From contig NC_091120.1 of the NCBI RefSeq assembly GCF_040183065.1, positions 73,448,708-73,512,707 of the forward strand: a stretch of 64,000 nucleotides of DNA, given 5' to 3'. This document shows, piece after piece, positions 2,613-53,045 of the stretch (the first letter of the stretch is position 1; each line of letters begins with the position of its first letter). The notes below the pieces were generated by a model. The model saw nothing but the letters and a program-made list of their open reading frames with translations, searched no databases and was not told the origin of the DNA. The DNA comes from Periplaneta americana. Its lineage: Eukaryota > Arthropoda > Insecta > Blattodea > Blattidae. The translations under genes and the position numbers were made by a program.

Positions 2613-2686
2613 ACTAATATACGTAAGTACATTAAATTGAAAAGTGAGTGAAATTGAATTTGTAAATAAGGTACAGTATATACATA

Positions 2687-3745
2687 ATGTGTGCTATGGC
2701 TGCTCTGTCTGGAAACTGTCGTAGTTGTAGAAGGATTGTAGTGAAAGGATTGGTATGTAATAATTGTAATTTCTGTTTTCATTGGAAATGTATAGATATA
2801 GATCCTGATAATTTTGTTGACAAAGGTAGTTGGGAATGTAGTGATTGTATATATGATAGAAAGATGCGCGATCAACTGGAGAGAATCAGAGCCCTAGAAT
2901 TGGAATTAGATGAGGCAAAGTGTGAAATTAATAAATTGAGAGCTTTGAAGGATAGCATTAGTGTTTCGAATAAAGAGAGATCTCACACTTGGATGAAACC
3001 GAAGAATTCCAAATCTAGGAGTAGACGTTTCTCTGCGGATGATGCTGCATCAATCAAACTGACCAACAAATTCAGTGCTCTTCAAGCAATGAATGTTGAT
3101 CAGGAGAACTCAGACCCAGTATCGACACTAGTAAAGGTAAGTCAGAAAACAGATAAGGTTAATGATTGTAGGAGTAAAGTATTGATTTTAGGAAGCAGCC
3201 ATGCAAGAGGTATTTCCTCACTTTTGAAGTCGAAACTGGGCGATGAGTTTGAAGTATCTAGTGTATGTAAGCCTAATGCTCCTCTCAAGAATGTTGTTGA
3301 GGATATGATGAAATTGAGTTCAGAATTTTCTAAGAGGGATCATGTAGTTATAGTGGGTGGGCCAGGTAATAGTATTGATAACGATTGTAACTATTCTATT
3401 GAGAAAGATGTCAACAACATAATTGAGATGAGCAGCCATACCAATGTGGGATTTCTCAGTCTTTTCAGCAGGTACGACAAGCCGTATCTTCACAGGAGGG
3501 TGCGGAGCGTGAATATGCGGCTTGAGCGGGCTCTGATGAGACCTGGGGCATCACACATTGGTTTGATAGATGTAAGCCCTATAAGAAGGTATGAATATAC
3601 GTCACATGGCCTGCATCTGAATGGTAGAGGCAAGGAGCACCTTTCGGTTCTTATTGCTAATAGCATCAGAGGCAGCCATGTTAAAAAGCAGAGTTGTAAT
3701 ATTCCTGTGTTAGTTAATGCTAGGGCTTCTCCTTTTTTAGGTTAA
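2687..3745 (+). CDS. LINE ORF1 protein: PHD finger, coiled coil, SGNH/GDSL esterase-like domain
   Basis: 352 aa. The N-terminal PHD-type zinc finger has C11, C14, C24, C27, H32, C35, C51 and C54 in C4HC3 order. Residues about 60-95 are heptad-like and charged (coiled coil). The SGNH-like domain begins with VLILGSSHARG (G169, S170-S171) and ends with HGLHLNGRGK (H310 likely catalytic). The usual Asp three residues before the His is His307 here, which as far as I recall is common in arthropod ORF1 homologues. In CR1 elements such proteins bind nucleic acid and help form the retrotransposition particle. The start is the first ATG; a second Met lies three codons on. Intact. Confidence 0.85.
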   Translation: MCAMAALSGNCRSCRRIVVKGLVCNNCNFCFHWKCIDIDPDNFVDKGSWECSDCIYDRKMRDQLERIRALELELDEAKCEINKLRALKDSISVSNKERSHTWMKPKNSKSRSRRFSADDAASIKLTNKFSALQAMNVDQENSDPVSTLVKVSQKTDKVNDCRSKVLILGSSHARGISSLLKSKLGDEFEVSSVCKPNAPLKNVVEDMMKLSSEFSKRDHVVIVGGPGNSIDNDCNYSIEKDVNNIIEMSSHTNVGFLSLFSRYDKPYLHRRVRSVNMRLERALMRPGASHIGLIDVSPIRRYEYTSHGLHLNGRGKEHLSVLIANSIRGSHVKKQSCNIPVLVNARASPFLG

Positions 3746-3765
3746 ACCTCCCACCGGTAAGGTGT

Positions 3766-6699
3766 TTGAAACAAGTTCAACTAAATTGTAAATGCTCTGA
3801 TGTTTCTAGTAATGAACACAGTAACTTCACTATTTTCCATCAAAATATTAGGGGATTAAAACAAAAAACTGATGAATTGATCACTTCTTTAGCAACTCAA
3901 AAGCATAAACCTCAGATATTATGTATAACTGAACATCACATGAAGCAACAGGAAATACTACAACTGTCTTTACATGGATATGTATTAGGTTCCCATTTCT
4001 GTAGACATGTCTTCCAAAAAGGGGGTGCCTGTATTTTTATCAGAGAGGATCTATTATTTAGTAAAATTGATATATCTGATTTTTGCCTTGAACAAGATAT
4101 TGAAATCTGTGGAATACAAATTGGTTATGAGATATCAAATTTAATTATCTTATGTGTTTATAGGGCGCCAATGGGAGATTATAAGAAATTTACAACTAAC
4201 TTAGATTCATTATTGAAAAGACTTTATAAACCACATACCGAATTTGTAATCTGTGGTGACATAAACATAGATTATCTATCAGAAAGCTCACGTAAAAGAA
4301 AATTAAACTCACTTCTTGAAACTTATAATCTTAGTCACACAGTAAGTTTTCCAACCAGAACACAAGCTGGAAGTAGTACTGCCATTGATAATATATTTAT
4401 AGATAAAAGTAGATTGAATTCCTATTCAACAGTACCATTAGTCAATGGCCTGTCTGATCACGATGCACAAATTCTAAGTGTTTTCAATATGAGTGAAAAA
4501 TTCCAAAGTGTTAATCTAAAAATAAAAAAAAGGATTATAAATGCTGAATCTCTTCATCATTTAAATACATGTCTACAAAATGAATCTTGGGAAAATGTAT
4601 ATAGTACCGATACCATTGATATTAATACTAAATTTAATGCATTTTTCACTACATTTACGAATTATTTCAATGAATGTTTTCCAGTCAAGGTGGTGAAAAA
4701 ATGTAAAAGTAAAAACACGTGGATAACTCAGGGAATTAAAATATCATGTACTAGAAAAAGGAATCTATATTTAATGAGTAGGAATAGTGATGATCCTCAT
4801 GTTCTTAATTACTACAAGAATTACTGTAAAACTTTGACAAAAGTTATAAAAGATGCAAAGAAAATGTATCTGAATGAAAAAATACAAAATTCAGATAATA
4901 AGATTAAAACTATTTGGGATATTATTAAAAATGAAACTAATCGATATTCAAAGAGTGAAAATATTACTTGCATTAAAATCAATGATAGTAAAATAGATAA
5001 CCCAAAATCAATTGCAAATCATTTTAACGACTTCTATATAAATATTATTCAGAACTTAAACATTCAAGATTGTGCAGAAGATGCTGCACTTGGTTACCTA
5101 ACTGATGCATTTAACACTGAGTTTTTAGGTCTCAAATTTATTCCCACTACCGCAGCAGAAATCATGCATGTGATAAAACAACTAAAAACAAAATATTCCT
5201 CTGGATATGATGAAATTCCAAGTAAGGTTCTGAAAGCTTGTTCTGAAATATTATCCCCTCCGTTAAGCTATCTATGCAATTTGTCAATGCAATGTGGTAT
5301 TTTTCCAGAAAGACTCAAATATTCAATAGTAAAACCAATATACAAAAAGGGAGATAAATGTACTATTGCTAATTACAGACCCATATCATTATTAACAACA
5401 TTTTCAAAAGTGTTTGAGAAAGTTATGTATAATAGATTATATCATTATCTGGAGTCCAACAATATATTAGTTTTAGAACAGTTTGGATTTAGAAAACAAA
5501 AATCGACAGAGAATGCTGCTTTTAGTTTGGTGGATGAAATACTAAATTCATTAAATTCGAAACTACATGTAGGTGGGATTTTTTGTGACTTGGCTAAAGC
5601 ATTTGATTGTGTAGACCATAGTATATTAGTAAAAAAATTGAAGTTTTATGGCATTAAAGATGAGATGTTGGGTTGGTTTACATCGTACTTATCAAATAGA
5701 AAACAAAAAGTAGAAATAAATGTACCAAATAGTCATAAAGTTACTTATTCAGAATTTAGAAATATTAAACATGGTGTTCCGCAGGGGTCAATTTTAGGTC
5801 CATTGTTGTTTCTAGTTTATATTAATGATTTAGCCTTGACCATAAACAATTCATCCCATGTAATTTTATTTGCAGATGATACAAGTGTAATTATTTCAAG
5901 CAAACAATACGATCATTTTATAAACACTTCTAATACAGTGCTGAATCTAATGAATGAATGGTTCCATGCAAATAAACTAGCACTTAATGTTGATAAAACC
6001 AGTGCAGTCAAATTTAGTACACACAATAGTGCTCAGGTTTCCTACAGTATTCGATTAAATGGAACTCATCTCAAAGAATCTATAAGCACAAAGTTTCTTG
6101 GTTTAGAATTGGATAATCACTTGAACTGGAAAACGCATATAGAATGTATTACTCGTAAATTGAGCTCTGCCTGTTATGCATTAAGATCCTTATCTACTAT
6201 TGGTGATATAAACTTACTCAAAATGTCATACTTTGCATATTTTCACTCTGTAATGAAATATGGCTTAATATTCTGGGGTAACTCGTCTGAAGCTAAACAC
6301 GTTTTTGTTTTACAAAAGAAAGCTATAAGAATAATGGCCGGTGTGCATAAAAGGACCTCATGTAAAAATATTTTCCGAAACTTAGAAATCTTGACTTTAC
6401 CTTGTGAATACATTCTTTCCGTAATGATGCTGTATATTAAGAACCAAGATAAATTCAGTACTAATCAAGACATTCATCATTTTAATACAAGACATAAATC
6501 AGATCTTCATCTACCCTCTGTTAGTCTAAGCTGTTTTAAAAAAGGAGTTCGCTATTCATGTATAACAGTCTTCAATGCACTGCCTAATTATCTTAAAGAT
6601 TTGAAGAACAACGAGAAAAGGTTCAGAAAAGAATTAACCAAATTTCTACATACTCATACCTTCTACACAATTGATGAATTGTTTATGCTTGTGAATTGA
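3766..6699 (+). CDS. LINE ORF2 protein: AP-like endonuclease and reverse transcriptase
   Basis: 977 aa, no stops. The endonuclease occupies about residues 20-240, with FHQNIRGLK, CITEHHM (catalytic Glu), FVICGDINIDYL, AIDNIFID and GLSDHDAQ. The reverse transcriptase spans about 520-790, with NYRPISLLTTFSKVFEK, FGFRKQKSTENAAF, DLAKAFDCVDHS, GVPQGSILGPLLFLVYIND and the active-site FADD (A703, D704, D705). A C-terminal region of about 190 aa lacks RNase H. It nicks target DNA and reverse-transcribes its own RNA. It starts 20 bp after the ORF1 stop, so re-initiation is likely. The length matches full CR1/L2 ORF2 proteins. Confidence 0.93.
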   Translation: MKQVQLNCKCSDVSSNEHSNFTIFHQNIRGLKQKTDELITSLATQKHKPQILCITEHHMKQQEILQLSLHGYVLGSHFCRHVFQKGGACIFIREDLLFSKIDISDFCLEQDIEICGIQIGYEISNLIILCVYRAPMGDYKKFTTNLDSLLKRLYKPHTEFVICGDINIDYLSESSRKRKLNSLLETYNLSHTVSFPTRTQAGSSTAIDNIFIDKSRLNSYSTVPLVNGLSDHDAQILSVFNMSEKFQSVNLKIKKRIINAESLHHLNTCLQNESWENVYSTDTIDINTKFNAFFTTFTNYFNECFPVKVVKKCKSKNTWITQGIKISCTRKRNLYLMSRNSDDPHVLNYYKNYCKTLTKVIKDAKKMYLNEKIQNSDNKIKTIWDIIKNETNRYSKSENITCIKINDSKIDNPKSIANHFNDFYINIIQNLNIQDCAEDAALGYLTDAFNTEFLGLKFIPTTAAEIMHVIKQLKTKYSSGYDEIPSKVLKACSEILSPPLSYLCNLSMQCGIFPERLKYSIVKPIYKKGDKCTIANYRPISLLTTFSKVFEKVMYNRLYHYLESNNILVLEQFGFRKQKSTENAAFSLVDEILNSLNSKLHVGGIFCDLAKAFDCVDHSILVKKLKFYGIKDEMLGWFTSYLSNRKQKVEINVPNSHKVTYSEFRNIKHGVPQGSILGPLLFLVYINDLALTINNSSHVILFADDTSVIISSKQYDHFINTSNTVLNLMNEWFHANKLALNVDKTSAVKFSTHNSAQVSYSIRLNGTHLKESISTKFLGLELDNHLNWKTHIECITRKLSSACYALRSLSTIGDINLLKMSYFAYFHSVMKYGLIFWGNSSEAKHVFVLQKKAIRIMAGVHKRTSCKNIFRNLEILTLPCEYILSVMMLYIKNQDKFSTNQDIHHFNTRHKSDLHLPSVSLSCFKKGVRYSCITVFNALPNYLKDLKNNEKRFRKELTKFLHTHTFYTIDELFMLVN

Positions 6700-8573: not shown

Positions 8574-9544
8574 CAAGGTGGAAGGAAACCTATTATATTA
8601 ATTCACATTAATATGAGGAATCCGAATCACGCGAAGTGGGTAGGCACTGTATACACACATACACAATTCATAGTGGTAATAGATGAAGTCAATGCGAACA
8701 AGTTTTGTCAAATACCTACGTTTTTTATACGTCCAATAATTTCGAGAATACGAAATGTAACGTGTTACAAAGCTACAACGCTCCATGAGGTCATTGCTTC
8801 CAGTGGGGTTGAGCGTAACTGTAATCATCCATTCCGCAAGACTTACGAAAGGAGAATGTAAACCAAAAACGTCTCATCACATACTTTTCAATCAAATTAC
8901 TGTAGATGAAAACAAAGTATTGAATCAATTAATTATGCAAATTGTTTGGTTTTTAACATTCTTTATTATGCTATGACCACTTTAACTCTAAAATTTAATA
9001 CCATGAAACTTATTTAACATTCACAGTATCTGTTGATTTCTATGCTTTTTACGTAATTAAAAACTAGTAAAGAATGTACATTCTTATAAAACAAAACTAT
9101 TTCGATTCAAGATTCCTTTACATTAATTGATACAAACTCAAAATAACATTAATTACGAATACACATTCTGTAACTCAATCTTCATTTAAGTTATTATCTT
9201 TGAAGAAATTAGAAGTTAATTCAGAAACGAAATTAAGTTTACAGTAATGTTGAGTAATGTGTTAAGTGCTACGAATGTAGACTACAGTAATGTGATGGAA
9301 ACTATCTTATGAGACGTTTTTGTTTACATTCTCTACTCGCAAATCTTGCGGAGAGGATAATTGTTGTTACACTCATCCCCACTGCAGAGCAATGACCTCA
9401 AGGAGCGTTGTAGCGTTACAACACGTTACATTCATATTTTCAAAATTATTGGACGTATCAAAAACTTATTTGACAAAACTTGTTCGCATTGACTTCATCT
9501 ATTACCTCCATGAATTAATGTAATAGGTTCCCTTCCACCCTATG
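8574..9544. mobile_element. TA-flanked long-inverted-repeat element (copy B of 436-1406)
   Basis: Identical to the element at 436-1406, including the extra ~70 bp in the left arm, so the duplication came after both insertions. Confidence 0.7.
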
Positions 9545-9572
9545 TATAAAGTACTGAGGCACTGCAAAAAAA

Positions 9573-10003
9573 AAATCAAATTATTACATAGGAAGAAAGG
9601 AAATAATAAACGAAAGAAATAAGGAAAGAAAAAAAAGAGAAAGATAAAAGAAGAAATAGATAAAAATGAAAGCAAAGACAGAAATGAAGAAAAGAAGAAA
9701 GGAAAGAAAGACAAAATACAGAAATAAAGGAATAAAGAAAGAAAGAACAAGGATGGAAATAGAGAAAGGAAGAACAAAGAAAAGAGAAAGCATGGAAGAA
9801 AGAAAAGTAGATGGGAAGAAAGACAGAAAGGATGAAGGGAAGAAAGGCAGAAAGGAAGAAAGTATTGCAAAAAGAAATACATGAAGGAAGAAAGAAAGAA
9901 ATGAAGGAATAAAAAACAAAAAAGAGAGAAGAAAAAGAGAAAAACAGAAAGGAACTGAGAAAGAATGGAACAAAGAAGATAGAAACAGATATAGGAAGAG
10001 ATA

Positions 10004-10039
<36 letters not shown>

Positions 10040-10040
10040 A

Positions 10041-10091
<51 letters not shown>
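9573..10091. repeat. Purine-rich tract ending in pure (AAAG)n
   Basis: Imperfect AG-rich repeat becoming near-perfect AAAG from about 10000 to 10091. The long minus-strand open frame of F, L and S is an artefact. Confidence 0.92.
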
Positions 10092-10124
10092 GAGTGTTCA
10101 ACTGTTAGGTTACCCAGTGTCTGT

Positions 10125-10285
10125 GAGAGCGAGGTGGTATTTTGACAAAATGAGACTGAGGATTCGCCATAGATTACTTGTCATTAGCCTAACAGAATGG
10201 GAAAAAGATTAAACCAGGTGATCGACCCAAGCGCTATTCGAACACACAATACGCTCGAGCTAAAGGGTAATAAGTAGTAACTTAA
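10125..10285 (-). mobile_element. SINE relic, same family as 7440-7735
   Basis: Read on the minus strand: a diverged box-B-like GTTCGAATAGCGC, then the SINE body; the plus strand shows GAGGATTCGCCATAGATTAC. It begins just after the AAAG microsatellite. Confidence 0.6.
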
Positions 10286-26357: not shown

Positions 26358-26538
26358 CTGTGGATTCCACATTGGGACCATGAGTTTTGGTCTAATAAAG
26401 CTGCGTGTTAGGACCAAGCTTAGAGGGAAAAACACAGTACACATCAGTATATGTATCTAATTTCAGTTAAGAGGACCAGCTGCATTATTGGACCAAAATG
26501 CATGGTCCCAACGTGGTCCTATTAAGCAGAATCCACTG
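26358..26538. mobile_element. Short pogo-like MITE
   Basis: The ends CTGTGGATTC (left) and CAGTGGATTC (right, read inward) continue into inverted TTGGGACCATG and TTTTGGTC. The left arm has lost about 16 bp. TA flanks both sides. It sits about 80 bp upstream of the Merlin-derived exon, so it could influence that promoter or splice site. Confidence 0.6.
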
Positions 26539-26628
26539 TATGTAAAATTTGAATGATTTTTGTACATGAATTGCTTGCTTGACATTCAGAATTATATCTT
26601 GAGCTTTGTTTACACAGTATTCAACATT

Positions 26629-27546
26629 ATGCAATTTGAGGAGCTGGAATTAGCAGTAGAGAATGAAGCAGCTGCAATAGAGTTTGCAGTGAAGAGAAAT
26701 TTATTACCTGAAAAGAAAACTCTTTGCCCTGTTTGTTTCATTGGTAATGTTGGCTGGTATAAACGCTCCAATGAAGGACTTAAAGTGCCATTTTCATTGA
26801 GGTGTTCAAGAAAAAAGTGTCGTAAAAAGTGGTCAGTCACAAAAAATACTTGGTTCTTTGGGTCTCATTTAAGTGTACGCCAAAACTTCATGTTGATATA
26901 TTTTTGGATCAGAGGAGACAATATCAGTGAATCAGCTGAACAATTGAAATTGAGCAAAACAACTGTCCTAGACTACTATCAGTTCTGTCGTGAAGTATGT
27001 TACGTGATTGTAAGTAACCGGACAAAACCTATAGGTGGACCTGGCCATGTAGTAGTGATCAATGAATTTCATGTTGATAGATTTATTGCCTCCCAGCGCA
27101 AACGTGTCTGTTTCCTTGAAGGAGTAGACAAAGACACTGGTGATTGTTTTTTGCTTGAAATTCAAAAGAACAATGCCGGAACTTTGATTCCACTAATCAA
27201 AACTTTTGTTCTGCAAGGTTCCAAAATATTAACTGATACTTGGGAATCTTATAGCAAGTTGAAGAGTGAAGAGTTTCAGAAAGAGTTTGTTGACCATATA
27301 GAATTTGTGGAGTCGAACAATCTGGAAGGGAAAACTAACAAAGTGAAGTGTATGTGGCGTACTGCAAAACGTTTTGTTGATGAAGGTCAGGAATCAAAGT
27401 CACGTGATCTGTGTTTATTTCAATATCTCTACTTCCATCCCATGGAATATATGACCACAGGGGAAAAGTTTGATAGATTTCTGGAAGACGTTGCTAAAGT
27501 TTACCCTGGTCCATTCAGAGACCCATTGACAGCTGTTGTGTATTAG
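26629..27546 (+). CDS. Merlin (ISXO2/IS1595-like) transposase-derived protein with altered catalytic triad
   Basis: 305 aa from ATG 26629; an in-frame ATG at 26560 would add 23 unrelated residues. I prefer 26629 because a splice acceptor (TTTACACAG) ends at 26617. A zinc ribbon has C33, C36, C59 and C64. HTH-like LKLSKTTVLDYY is at about 106-117. The RNase H-like core reads VVVINEFHVDRF, GVDKDTGDCFLLEI, ILTDTWESYSKL and TNKVKCMWRTAK. Merlin proteins usually have IDE, D and NTIE there. Here the first Asp is N145, the second D203 is kept and the Glu is K240. There are no stops or frameshifts. A strong donor (AG|GTAAGC) lies 2 nt after the stop. I see no Merlin terminal repeats nearby. A catalytically dead but open frame suggests a domesticated host gene; a recently dead transposon copy is the alternative. 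Confidence 0.8.
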   Translation: MQFEELELAVENEAAAIEFAVKRNLLPEKKTLCPVCFIGNVGWYKRSNEGLKVPFSLRCSRKKCRKKWSVTKNTWFFGSHLSVRQNFMLIYFWIRGDNISESAEQLKLSKTTVLDYYQFCREVCYVIVSNRTKPIGGPGHVVVINEFHVDRFIASQRKRVCFLEGVDKDTGDCFLLEIQKNNAGTLIPLIKTFVLQGSKILTDTWESYSKLKSEEFQKEFVDHIEFVESNNLEGKTNKVKCMWRTAKRFVDEGQESKSRDLCLFQYLYFHPMEYMTTGEKFDRFLEDVAKVYPGPFRDPLTAVVY

Positions 27547-27550
27547 AGGT

Positions 27551-28541
27551 AAGCCATTTATTTATTTTTCCATTATTTCCAAATTTTAGTGATATGACTG
27601 ACCACTGTGGCACGAATATCTAGTTATAGATTTGGAGCGTTCGTACCATAAGTGGATAGTCTTGTATTGCTTTATGAAACATTAGGAACATAACTTAATT
27701 TTGGAAAAGACCCTAGTTTTTTTAATTAGCAATAGTATGTTCTCTTATGGTGGTGGGAAAGAATGCAAGATTAGAAATACAACATAAATATATTTCTTCA
27801 GTAAACTTCTATTAACTTCTTGCTTTTCTTTTGTTGTCATAGGTGATTAGTTTAACTAAAAAAAAAAAATGTAGAGTTCAATGATCACATTGTGCTCAAT
27901 GCTATGATGTCAGAGATGGAATTTAAATATTAACTTAATATAAGATTAGTTTATACTTCTAAGATGGTTATTTTTTTCCAGTCAAAGTTAATTACTACAG
28001 ACTTATACTGTAGAGCATTCTTCACAAAAAAAAAAACAGTAACAAAAATACTAAAAGGCAATAATTTCGAATAGTCTGCATATAGTTCAATATGCTGCTT
28101 AGAGTCCCGTTCATTTGTCCTTTACTGTTCTTCTGGTCAAGAAAAAAGCTCCACATTGTAGGTTGTACAGTAGTAGGAAATAATTCTACATACTGTTTTC
28201 AGTAAACAATATAAAAAATATTTGAAAATTTGGTTCAGTGTCACATTCAACTTGTGGGACAATACTGAACAAATGCGTCTAGTAAATCATTACAATATGA
28301 ATTTACAAATAGTATCTTCGTATCAACATCAAAATCTTAACTAAAAGTAACAACTTGACTATAGAAAAAAAAAAAAAACATAAGAAAGTATCAGTTAATG
28401 CTGTAGAAAAATAGTAAGAATAAATTACTTTAATAGTTTCTTGTACTTATTATTTAAGATTTTGTATTAAACTTTTGCTTTTCTTAACCATTCGGCTTCT
28501 CTTACGTTGTTGAACCTGTAGTTCAGTGTAGTATATTCAAC
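27551..28541. other. AT-rich non-coding stretch
   Basis: Probably intron or intergenic. Poly(A) runs, no recognisable element. An acceptor-like TTTTTTTCCAG near 27975 is followed by a short open frame I cannot support as an exon. Confidence 0.4.
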
Positions 28542-52263: not shown

Positions 52264-53045
52264 CGTTTAATATTTTAGGAGAAAAATTCGCTCCGGTGCC
52301 GGGGATCGAACCCGGGTCCTTGGTTCTACATATCAAGCGCTCTGACCACTGAGCTACGTCGAACTCAATCCACAGCACCAGATCGAACTTTCCTCCGATG
52401 TTTCCCCTTGTGGCCTGACTCCAAGTTAGGCATATATATTTTGACGTGTATCCAATGTCAACTGCCATTATACTAGGAGTGCACTCAACTGAGTGACTTG
52501 CTGGCCGGGAATCCGCAGTTATTATGCACTGCTAGCTAAGAGAATATTATAGATATATTAATTTGTCCTACAGAATTTATCTGTAATATTGACACTTAAT
52601 ATTTTAGGAGAAAAATTTGCTCCTGCGCTGGGGATTGAACCCGGGTCCTTGGTTCTACATACCAAGTGCTCTGACCACTGAGCTACGCCGAATTCAATCC
52701 ACAGCATCGGATCGAACTTTTCTCCTTCGATGTTTCCCTTTGTGGCCTGACTCCAAGTTAGACATACATATTTTGACGTGTATCCAATGTCAACTGCCAT
52801 TATACTAGGAGCGCACTCAATTGAGTGACTTGCTGGCCGAGAATCCGCAGTTGTTATGCACTGCTAGCTAAGAGAATATTATAGATATATTAATTTGTGG
52901 CTCGGTGGTCAGAATGCTTGGTACATAGAACCAAGGACCCGGGTTCGATCCCCGGTGCCGGAGCGAATTTTTCTCCTAAAATATTAAGTGTCAATATTAC
53001 AGATAAATTGTGTCGGACAAATTAATATATCTATAATATAATAAT
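52264..53045. repeat. Tandem-plus-inverted array of tRNA-like palindromic repeat units
   Basis: Two ~329 bp units in tandem (52269-52597 and 52598-52899), then a short inverted arm (52899-53045). Each unit opens with AATATTTTAGGAGAAAAATT and a minus-sense tRNA-like sequence. Read on the minus strand that sequence gives TTCGACGTAGCTCAGTGGTC (box A), TGTAGAACCAAGGACC and GGGTTCGATCCCC (perfect box B), with plausible D, anticodon and T arms and a wobble-rich acceptor stem. AAAATTTGA flanks the block (52255-52263 and 53046-53054). Confidence 0.8.

Follow-up and report, generated by a model that had tools for sequence, protein, structure and literature searches.

The closest described relatives of the gene reported here are the Merlin transposases and the bacterial IS1595 transposases (PF12762), which have in common with its protein the domain, the zinc ribbon, the length, the second Asp of the catalytic triad and the GG(x)G, W and H landmarks. 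Putative domesticated Merlin genes have been described from the protists Stentor, Symbiodinium and Perkinsela, their frames being preserved without identifiable repeats or target duplications and DDE being unconserved in several Stentor genes and in some from Symbiodinium; the portions of that work used here name no insect case of Merlin co-option (PMC8101967). Domesticated PIF/Harbinger genes are known from insects, among them two co-opted genes of cockroaches, BPLG1 and BPLG2, for which the sections of the source drawn on here give as criteria synteny, purifying selection and the absence of related copies and of terminal repeats (PMC9710019). Merlin is not among the aphid transposase-derived proteins catalogued in the parts of PMC9783078 consulted. 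In the open-licence literature, Merlin co-option thus appears as a proposal for protists, with no animal case found, and such a case may be published elsewhere.

In this study, we analysed a gene in a 64,000-nucleotide stretch of the Periplaneta americana genome (the window), which we consider, with a probability of roughly two in three, to be a domesticated and catalytically dead Merlin gene that would act through binding of DNA or of partners. Unlike Merlin and IS1595 transposases, it has two of the catalytic acids replaced and lacks both the RKYxRG loop and the NHS motif; neither terminal repeats nor close copies were found for it. It differs from the protist genes, as far as these are described in the portions of PMC8101967 used, in belonging to an animal genome, in having a roughly dated flank and in being accompanied by further dead frames. 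Like BPLG1 and BPLG2 it is transposase-derived and without related copies or terminal repeats, whereas those two genes are from another superfamily and, in the sections of PMC9710019 drawn on, are also backed by interspecies synteny and measured purifying selection. As we picture it, the host gene would descend from an ancient Merlin (IS1595-related) transposase and its protein would fold and bind DNA via the zinc ribbon and a helical region, while the dead RNase H domain would dimerise or recruit partners, so that the protein would serve in chromatin or in regulation as a factor that does not cut. The gene model comprises the following features.

26629..27546, plus strand: coding frame of the Merlin-derived protein, 305 residues plus TAG (Pfam PF12762, E 6e-9)
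26618..27548, plus strand: putative exon, with an acceptor ending at 26617 and the donor GTAAGC at 27549 (splice-site scores)
27549..27842, plus strand: possible intron in the 3' UTR, the acceptor-like site ending at 27842

The frame runs from the ATG at 26629 to the TAG at 27544-27546 within an open span of 329 codons from stop to stop. The 305 uninterrupted codons claimed from the letters alone are therefore real, and the longest opening in any of the six frames of 60 random windows of equal trinucleotide make-up was only 190 codons. Of the two splice sites proposed in the same reading, the donor (GAG|GTAAGC, 2 nt past the stop codon) is indeed strong, ranking in the top 0.14% of the window's 3648 plus-strand GT sites (0.078 per kb), whereas the acceptor, 11 nt ahead of the ATG and called good, is only moderate (top 3.2% of AG sites); the weights behind these scores are generic metazoan ones. 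The gene would be spliced, with one exon carrying the entire coding sequence, and an AATAAA at 28419 lies downstream of the acceptor-like site. A stop codon so near the last exon junction is unlikely to trigger message decay. Pieces of a gene that we take, from its motifs, to be SLU7 lie on the same strand at ~33.6 to 40.4 kb; we rejected the frame as an exon of SLU7, as those pieces start only at ~33.6 kb and a stop codon closes the frame.

Elsewhere the window holds an intact LINE (2666-6699), whose 991-codon endonuclease and reverse transcriptase frame follows a Cys-rich frame of 359 codons that has no Pfam match. Two tRNA-Tyr genes or tRNA-derived repeats lie ~330 bases apart on the minus strand (52290-52363 and 52619-52692), and a pyrimidine-rich simple-repeat stretch, giving long spurious minus-strand frames, occurs twice (1364-1919 and 9502-10180).

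The assignment of the protein to its family is based on a match of residues 156-248 to Pfam DDE_Tnp_IS1595 (PF12762; E 6e-9, 36.5 bits against a cut-off of 27); the NCBIfam IS1595 model also matched (2.3e-9), yet its 37.5 bits fall short of the cut-off of 75. Three regions can be distinguished.

26725..26820, plus strand: zinc ribbon C33-x2-C36 ... C59-x4-C64, all four Cys kept (alignments)
26869..27015, plus strand: helical, helix-turn-helix-like stretch, residues 81-129, presumed to bind DNA (structure model)
27049..27381, plus strand: RNase H-like domain, residues 141-251 (Pfam, structure model and PDB fold matches)

Alignments bear out the intact zinc ribbon that had been claimed, with C33, C36, C59 and C64 all present, and residues 33-80, which include it, are strongly basic (11 K+R, 1 D+E). 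A structure model built from the protein and 27 bacterial relatives shows an RNase H fold (pLDDT 79.3, pTM 0.71), and a PDB fold search with it returned transposases and integrases, the ISCth4 transposase being best (E 1.8e-5), followed by IstA and retroviral integrases, all with TM-scores by query that are low (0.24-0.36). A viral origin was rejected, the retroviral matches being attributed to the common RNase H fold. Searches of viral contigs and phage records found no relatives, a PDB sequence search gave just two weak, implausible matches, and plasmid records yielded three distant IS1595 copies. A scan of genome contigs for relatives gave 51 loci, every one with a bacterial title and none on an animal contig.

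The positions concerned in the loss of the catalytic site are these.

27061..27063, plus strand: N145 (AAT) at the position of the first catalytic Asp (alignments to relatives)
27073..27081, plus strand: in-frame deletion of 7-8 residues that removes the basic, conserved RKYxRG loop following N145 (alignments)
27235..27237, plus strand: D203 (GAT), second catalytic Asp, kept (alignments to relatives)
27346..27348, plus strand: K240 (AAG) at the position of the third catalytic Glu (alignments to relatives)

In pairwise alignments with L005-L033, the 29 closest relatives retrieved from the same genome, position 145 is D in all 29, position 203 is D in all 29 and position 240 is E in 28 (L025 is gapped there), confirming that N145, D203 and K240 align with the D, D and E of the triad, as had been claimed; these relatives keep their catalytic residues though many copies carry stops. 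In the structure model the RNase H domain has N145 on strand 1, D203 comes directly after a later strand (199-202), and K240 begins the last helix of the domain after a loop (233-239) with pLDDT <50. E143, H218 and N222 are also changed, with VDH-I replacing VNHS (alignment A1), and the alignments indicate that, together with the loss of the RKYxRG loop, the damage to the predicted catalytic site is greater than two acids. D145 is kept in at least 90% of the 27 bacterial relatives (alignment A2), while the third position is absent from their near-invariant list, and the loss at 145 is thus the stronger sign. The first Asp codon is GAT or GAC and the third Glu codon GAA in the six relatives checked; we rejected the possibility that both acids were lost through single G-to-A changes, as the AAG of K240 is two changes distant from GAA.

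The AAT of N145, one change from GAT, is also what might be expected of an old and decaying transposon relic that is still open by chance, its acids lost randomly and its stops yet to come, which we regard as an unlikely explanation of the gene. In its favour, 30 of the 80 sites invariant across five clade representatives are changed in the protein and 50 are kept, and the evidence for selection on the gene is indirect. Among sites invariant in eight wider representatives the protein keeps 19 of 29, while each of those eight, left out in turn, keeps 29 of 30-39. Every alignment gap of the frame relative to its relatives has a length that is a multiple of 3, but this is already implied by the open frame.

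Evidence against a decaying relic comes from simulations of neutral decay, in which none of 400 runs stayed open at 72% residue identity (mean 6.2 stops) or at 62% (mean 8.3 stops), with 400 runs for each. A copy with 31% identity (C1:128895736) carries 10 stops. The argument from neutral decay is weak if the loss accrued while the element was active at the rate of L046 and L053, whose retention of clade sites is 0.74-0.76; little decay then remains to be explained, and at 87% identity 3.5% of runs were still open. A second, rougher clock is provided by a repeat in the upstream flank.

26358..26538, no strand: MITE-like palindrome bounded by a terminal TA on either side, 79 bp before the putative exon

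This repeat has at least 39 further copies that cover most of its length with 83-91% identity (median 86%), equivalent to ~7% divergence per copy on the presumption that the copies radiated together. At 7%, a neutral frame stayed open in 4.6% of 2000 runs when only stops were counted and in 0-0.3% once indels were included at assumed ratios of 0.05-0.15, so that 0-5% of neutral copies would be expected to have stayed open since the repeat inserted. This clock is valid only if the Merlin copy was there before the repeat inserted, which is likely if a younger copy would still show ends, and also because the 5' end of L006 and L011 lies roughly 600-700 bp ahead of their frame, farther out than the repeat sits here. 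Fourfold sites are saturated between the gene and L011 (9 of 34 alike) while 39% of residues match, which counts in favour of a host gene; dS was not estimable against six of eight relatives and was an unreliable 2-3 against L025 and L033. Overall, the neutral simulations make an open frame in a dead relic improbable.

Many near-identical copies with Merlin terminal repeats and an intact DDE had been named beforehand as an observation that would speak against domestication, and the 3.23-Gb assembly (91 contigs) was searched for such copies and ends. In a whole-genome protein search in which 129 of 713 candidates were scored, the next best match after the gene itself had ~40% identity over nearly its full length, and the highest identity among the matches listed was 45%, on a 124-residue piece; a whole-genome DNA search with 1001 bases of the gene region matched only itself. 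No near-identical copy was found by either search. A scan of 2.5 kb on each side of the gene for GG..CC ends with an 8-9 bp target duplication found none, its score of 21 falling within the null range (19-24). The same scan was positive in seven of 21 control loci (L005, L006, L011, L019, L022, L033 and L053; scores 31-34) and found no ends in the 10 loci tested that have a dead triad, nor in L024, L025, L034 and L046. A further scan, covering 38 loci, again placed the gene at background level, with scores a little above it for L112 (25) and the dead-triad L115 (24). The missing ends count for less than they might seem to because the scan misses some intact-triad, multi-copy families: L034, L105/L106 and L116/L117 score just 19-21, and L112 no more than 25, even though L105 and L106 are 97% alike across ~2.7 kb.

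The same lack of a sibling in the protein search, where 129 of 713 candidates were scored, and in the DNA search would fit the recent horizontal transfer of a single Merlin copy from a divergent lineage, with the triad lost after arrival, and the long branch of the gene in the tree (1.07) could lie in another host. A recent arrival would be expected to have terminal repeats and a target duplication, which were undetected within 2.5 kb by a scan that misses some families, and the upstream repeat, ~80 bp before the exon and ~7% diverged per copy, occupies the expected 5' part of the element. We consider such a transfer very improbable. The prior description of the gene as a likely domestication is therefore supported by the lack of near-identical copies, the lack of detected ends and the expectation that a neutral relic would be broken, and domestication is in our view the probable interpretation.

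The distribution of retained sites bears on what a domesticated, non-cutting protein may do. The protein keeps 22 of 28 clade-invariant sites in residues 1-140, 20 of 39 in residues 141-250 and 8 of 13 in residues 251-305, while leave-one-out retention among the five clade relatives is 72-90%, 85-95% and 76-100%, respectively. The contrast between the N half and the RNase H domain is modest (Fisher p 0.039; 0.005-0.109 across other reference sets), and the mobile-type L033 has the opposite contrast, its RNase H domain being better kept than its N half (p 0.018). Together with the basic zinc-ribbon region, the better-kept N half favours a role in binding without cutting, as judged from the protein sequence.

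Frames of this kind are not confined to the window. Among 69 other Merlin-type loci that were read, 18 are open frames in which one or more catalytic acids are changed (L036, L037, L038, L042, L043, L045, L047, L048, L049, L050, L051, L107, L108, L114, L115, L118, L122 and L123); the loci were hand-picked, L034-L053 and L105-L124 leaning to open frames, and 18 of 69 is therefore no rate. The 18 frames span 252-354 codons from stop to stop and are spread over several clades of the tree, some of whose deep supports are low. L114 and L115 each have one stop within the matched span in the whole-genome protein search, and L111, whose third residue is changed, has one stop in frame as read.

For pairs in which both members have the loss, which is then probably older than their split, dN/dS was 0.21 in L049/L050, 0.31 in L107/L108, 0.30 in L107/L123, 0.39 in L108/L123, 0.38 in L036/L043 and 0.44-0.45 in L036/L038. 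These values were judged against the mean of simulated neutral pairs, which is below 1 (0.64-0.95). Of 60 neutral pairs simulated for each, none was as low for L049/L050, L107/L108 and L107/L123 and one was as low for L036/L043; for L036/L038 there were 12, which is not significant. L049/L050, L107/L108, L107/L123 and L036/L043 were expected to have 4.8-8.4 stops and have none. A pair with one dead member, L109/L122, gave 0.60. Intact-triad pairs of mobile type gave 0.20-0.73 by the same method, and a low dN/dS alone is thus no mark of a host gene. Taken together, the pairs suggest that purifying selection can act on dead Merlin frames in the P. americana genome; this raises the prior probability for the gene in the window without testing it.

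The DNA similarity of L049 and L050 (83%) and of L107 and L108 (91%) barely extends past the frame, and the loci lie at different places, as if the frames had been copied through RNA or as if only selection had retained them. Another locus, L024, has a 344-codon open Merlin frame with an intact triad and a negative end scan; it may represent co-option at an early stage, a copy that has been truncated or a locus whose ends the scan missed, and it demonstrates that an open frame without ends is no proof of co-option.

Merlin families that look recently mobile are also present in this genome: L005, L006, L011, L019 and L022 have ends that match, target duplications that are exact over 8 bp and copies ~94-99% alike. 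At L033 one Merlin insertion lies inside another from its own family, and both are flanked by separate, exact 8-bp duplications.

L033:981-3713 and 1184-2697, numbered on the reversed sequence (locus minus strand): the nested insertions

Dead but folded transposases may poison active ones. The presence of families with such ends, duplications and closely similar copies is consistent with the host gene repressing resident Merlin elements in a dominant-negative manner, either by binding to the element ends or by forming mixed complexes with the active transposase. The 39% identity of the protein to the nearest mobile family makes common end recognition or mixed dimers doubtful, and we rate this role as distinctly unlikely. 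A wider proposal, that the genome keeps a set of dead Merlin genes, independent in origin and under selection, that regulate or antagonise still-mobile Merlin elements, is tentative and on the whole doubtful. If the gene in the window is indeed a domesticated, catalytically dead Merlin gene, its occurrence beside Merlin families that look recently mobile would allow a direct test of why hosts keep dead transposases, and specifically of whether they are kept for DNA binding or as brakes on live elements.
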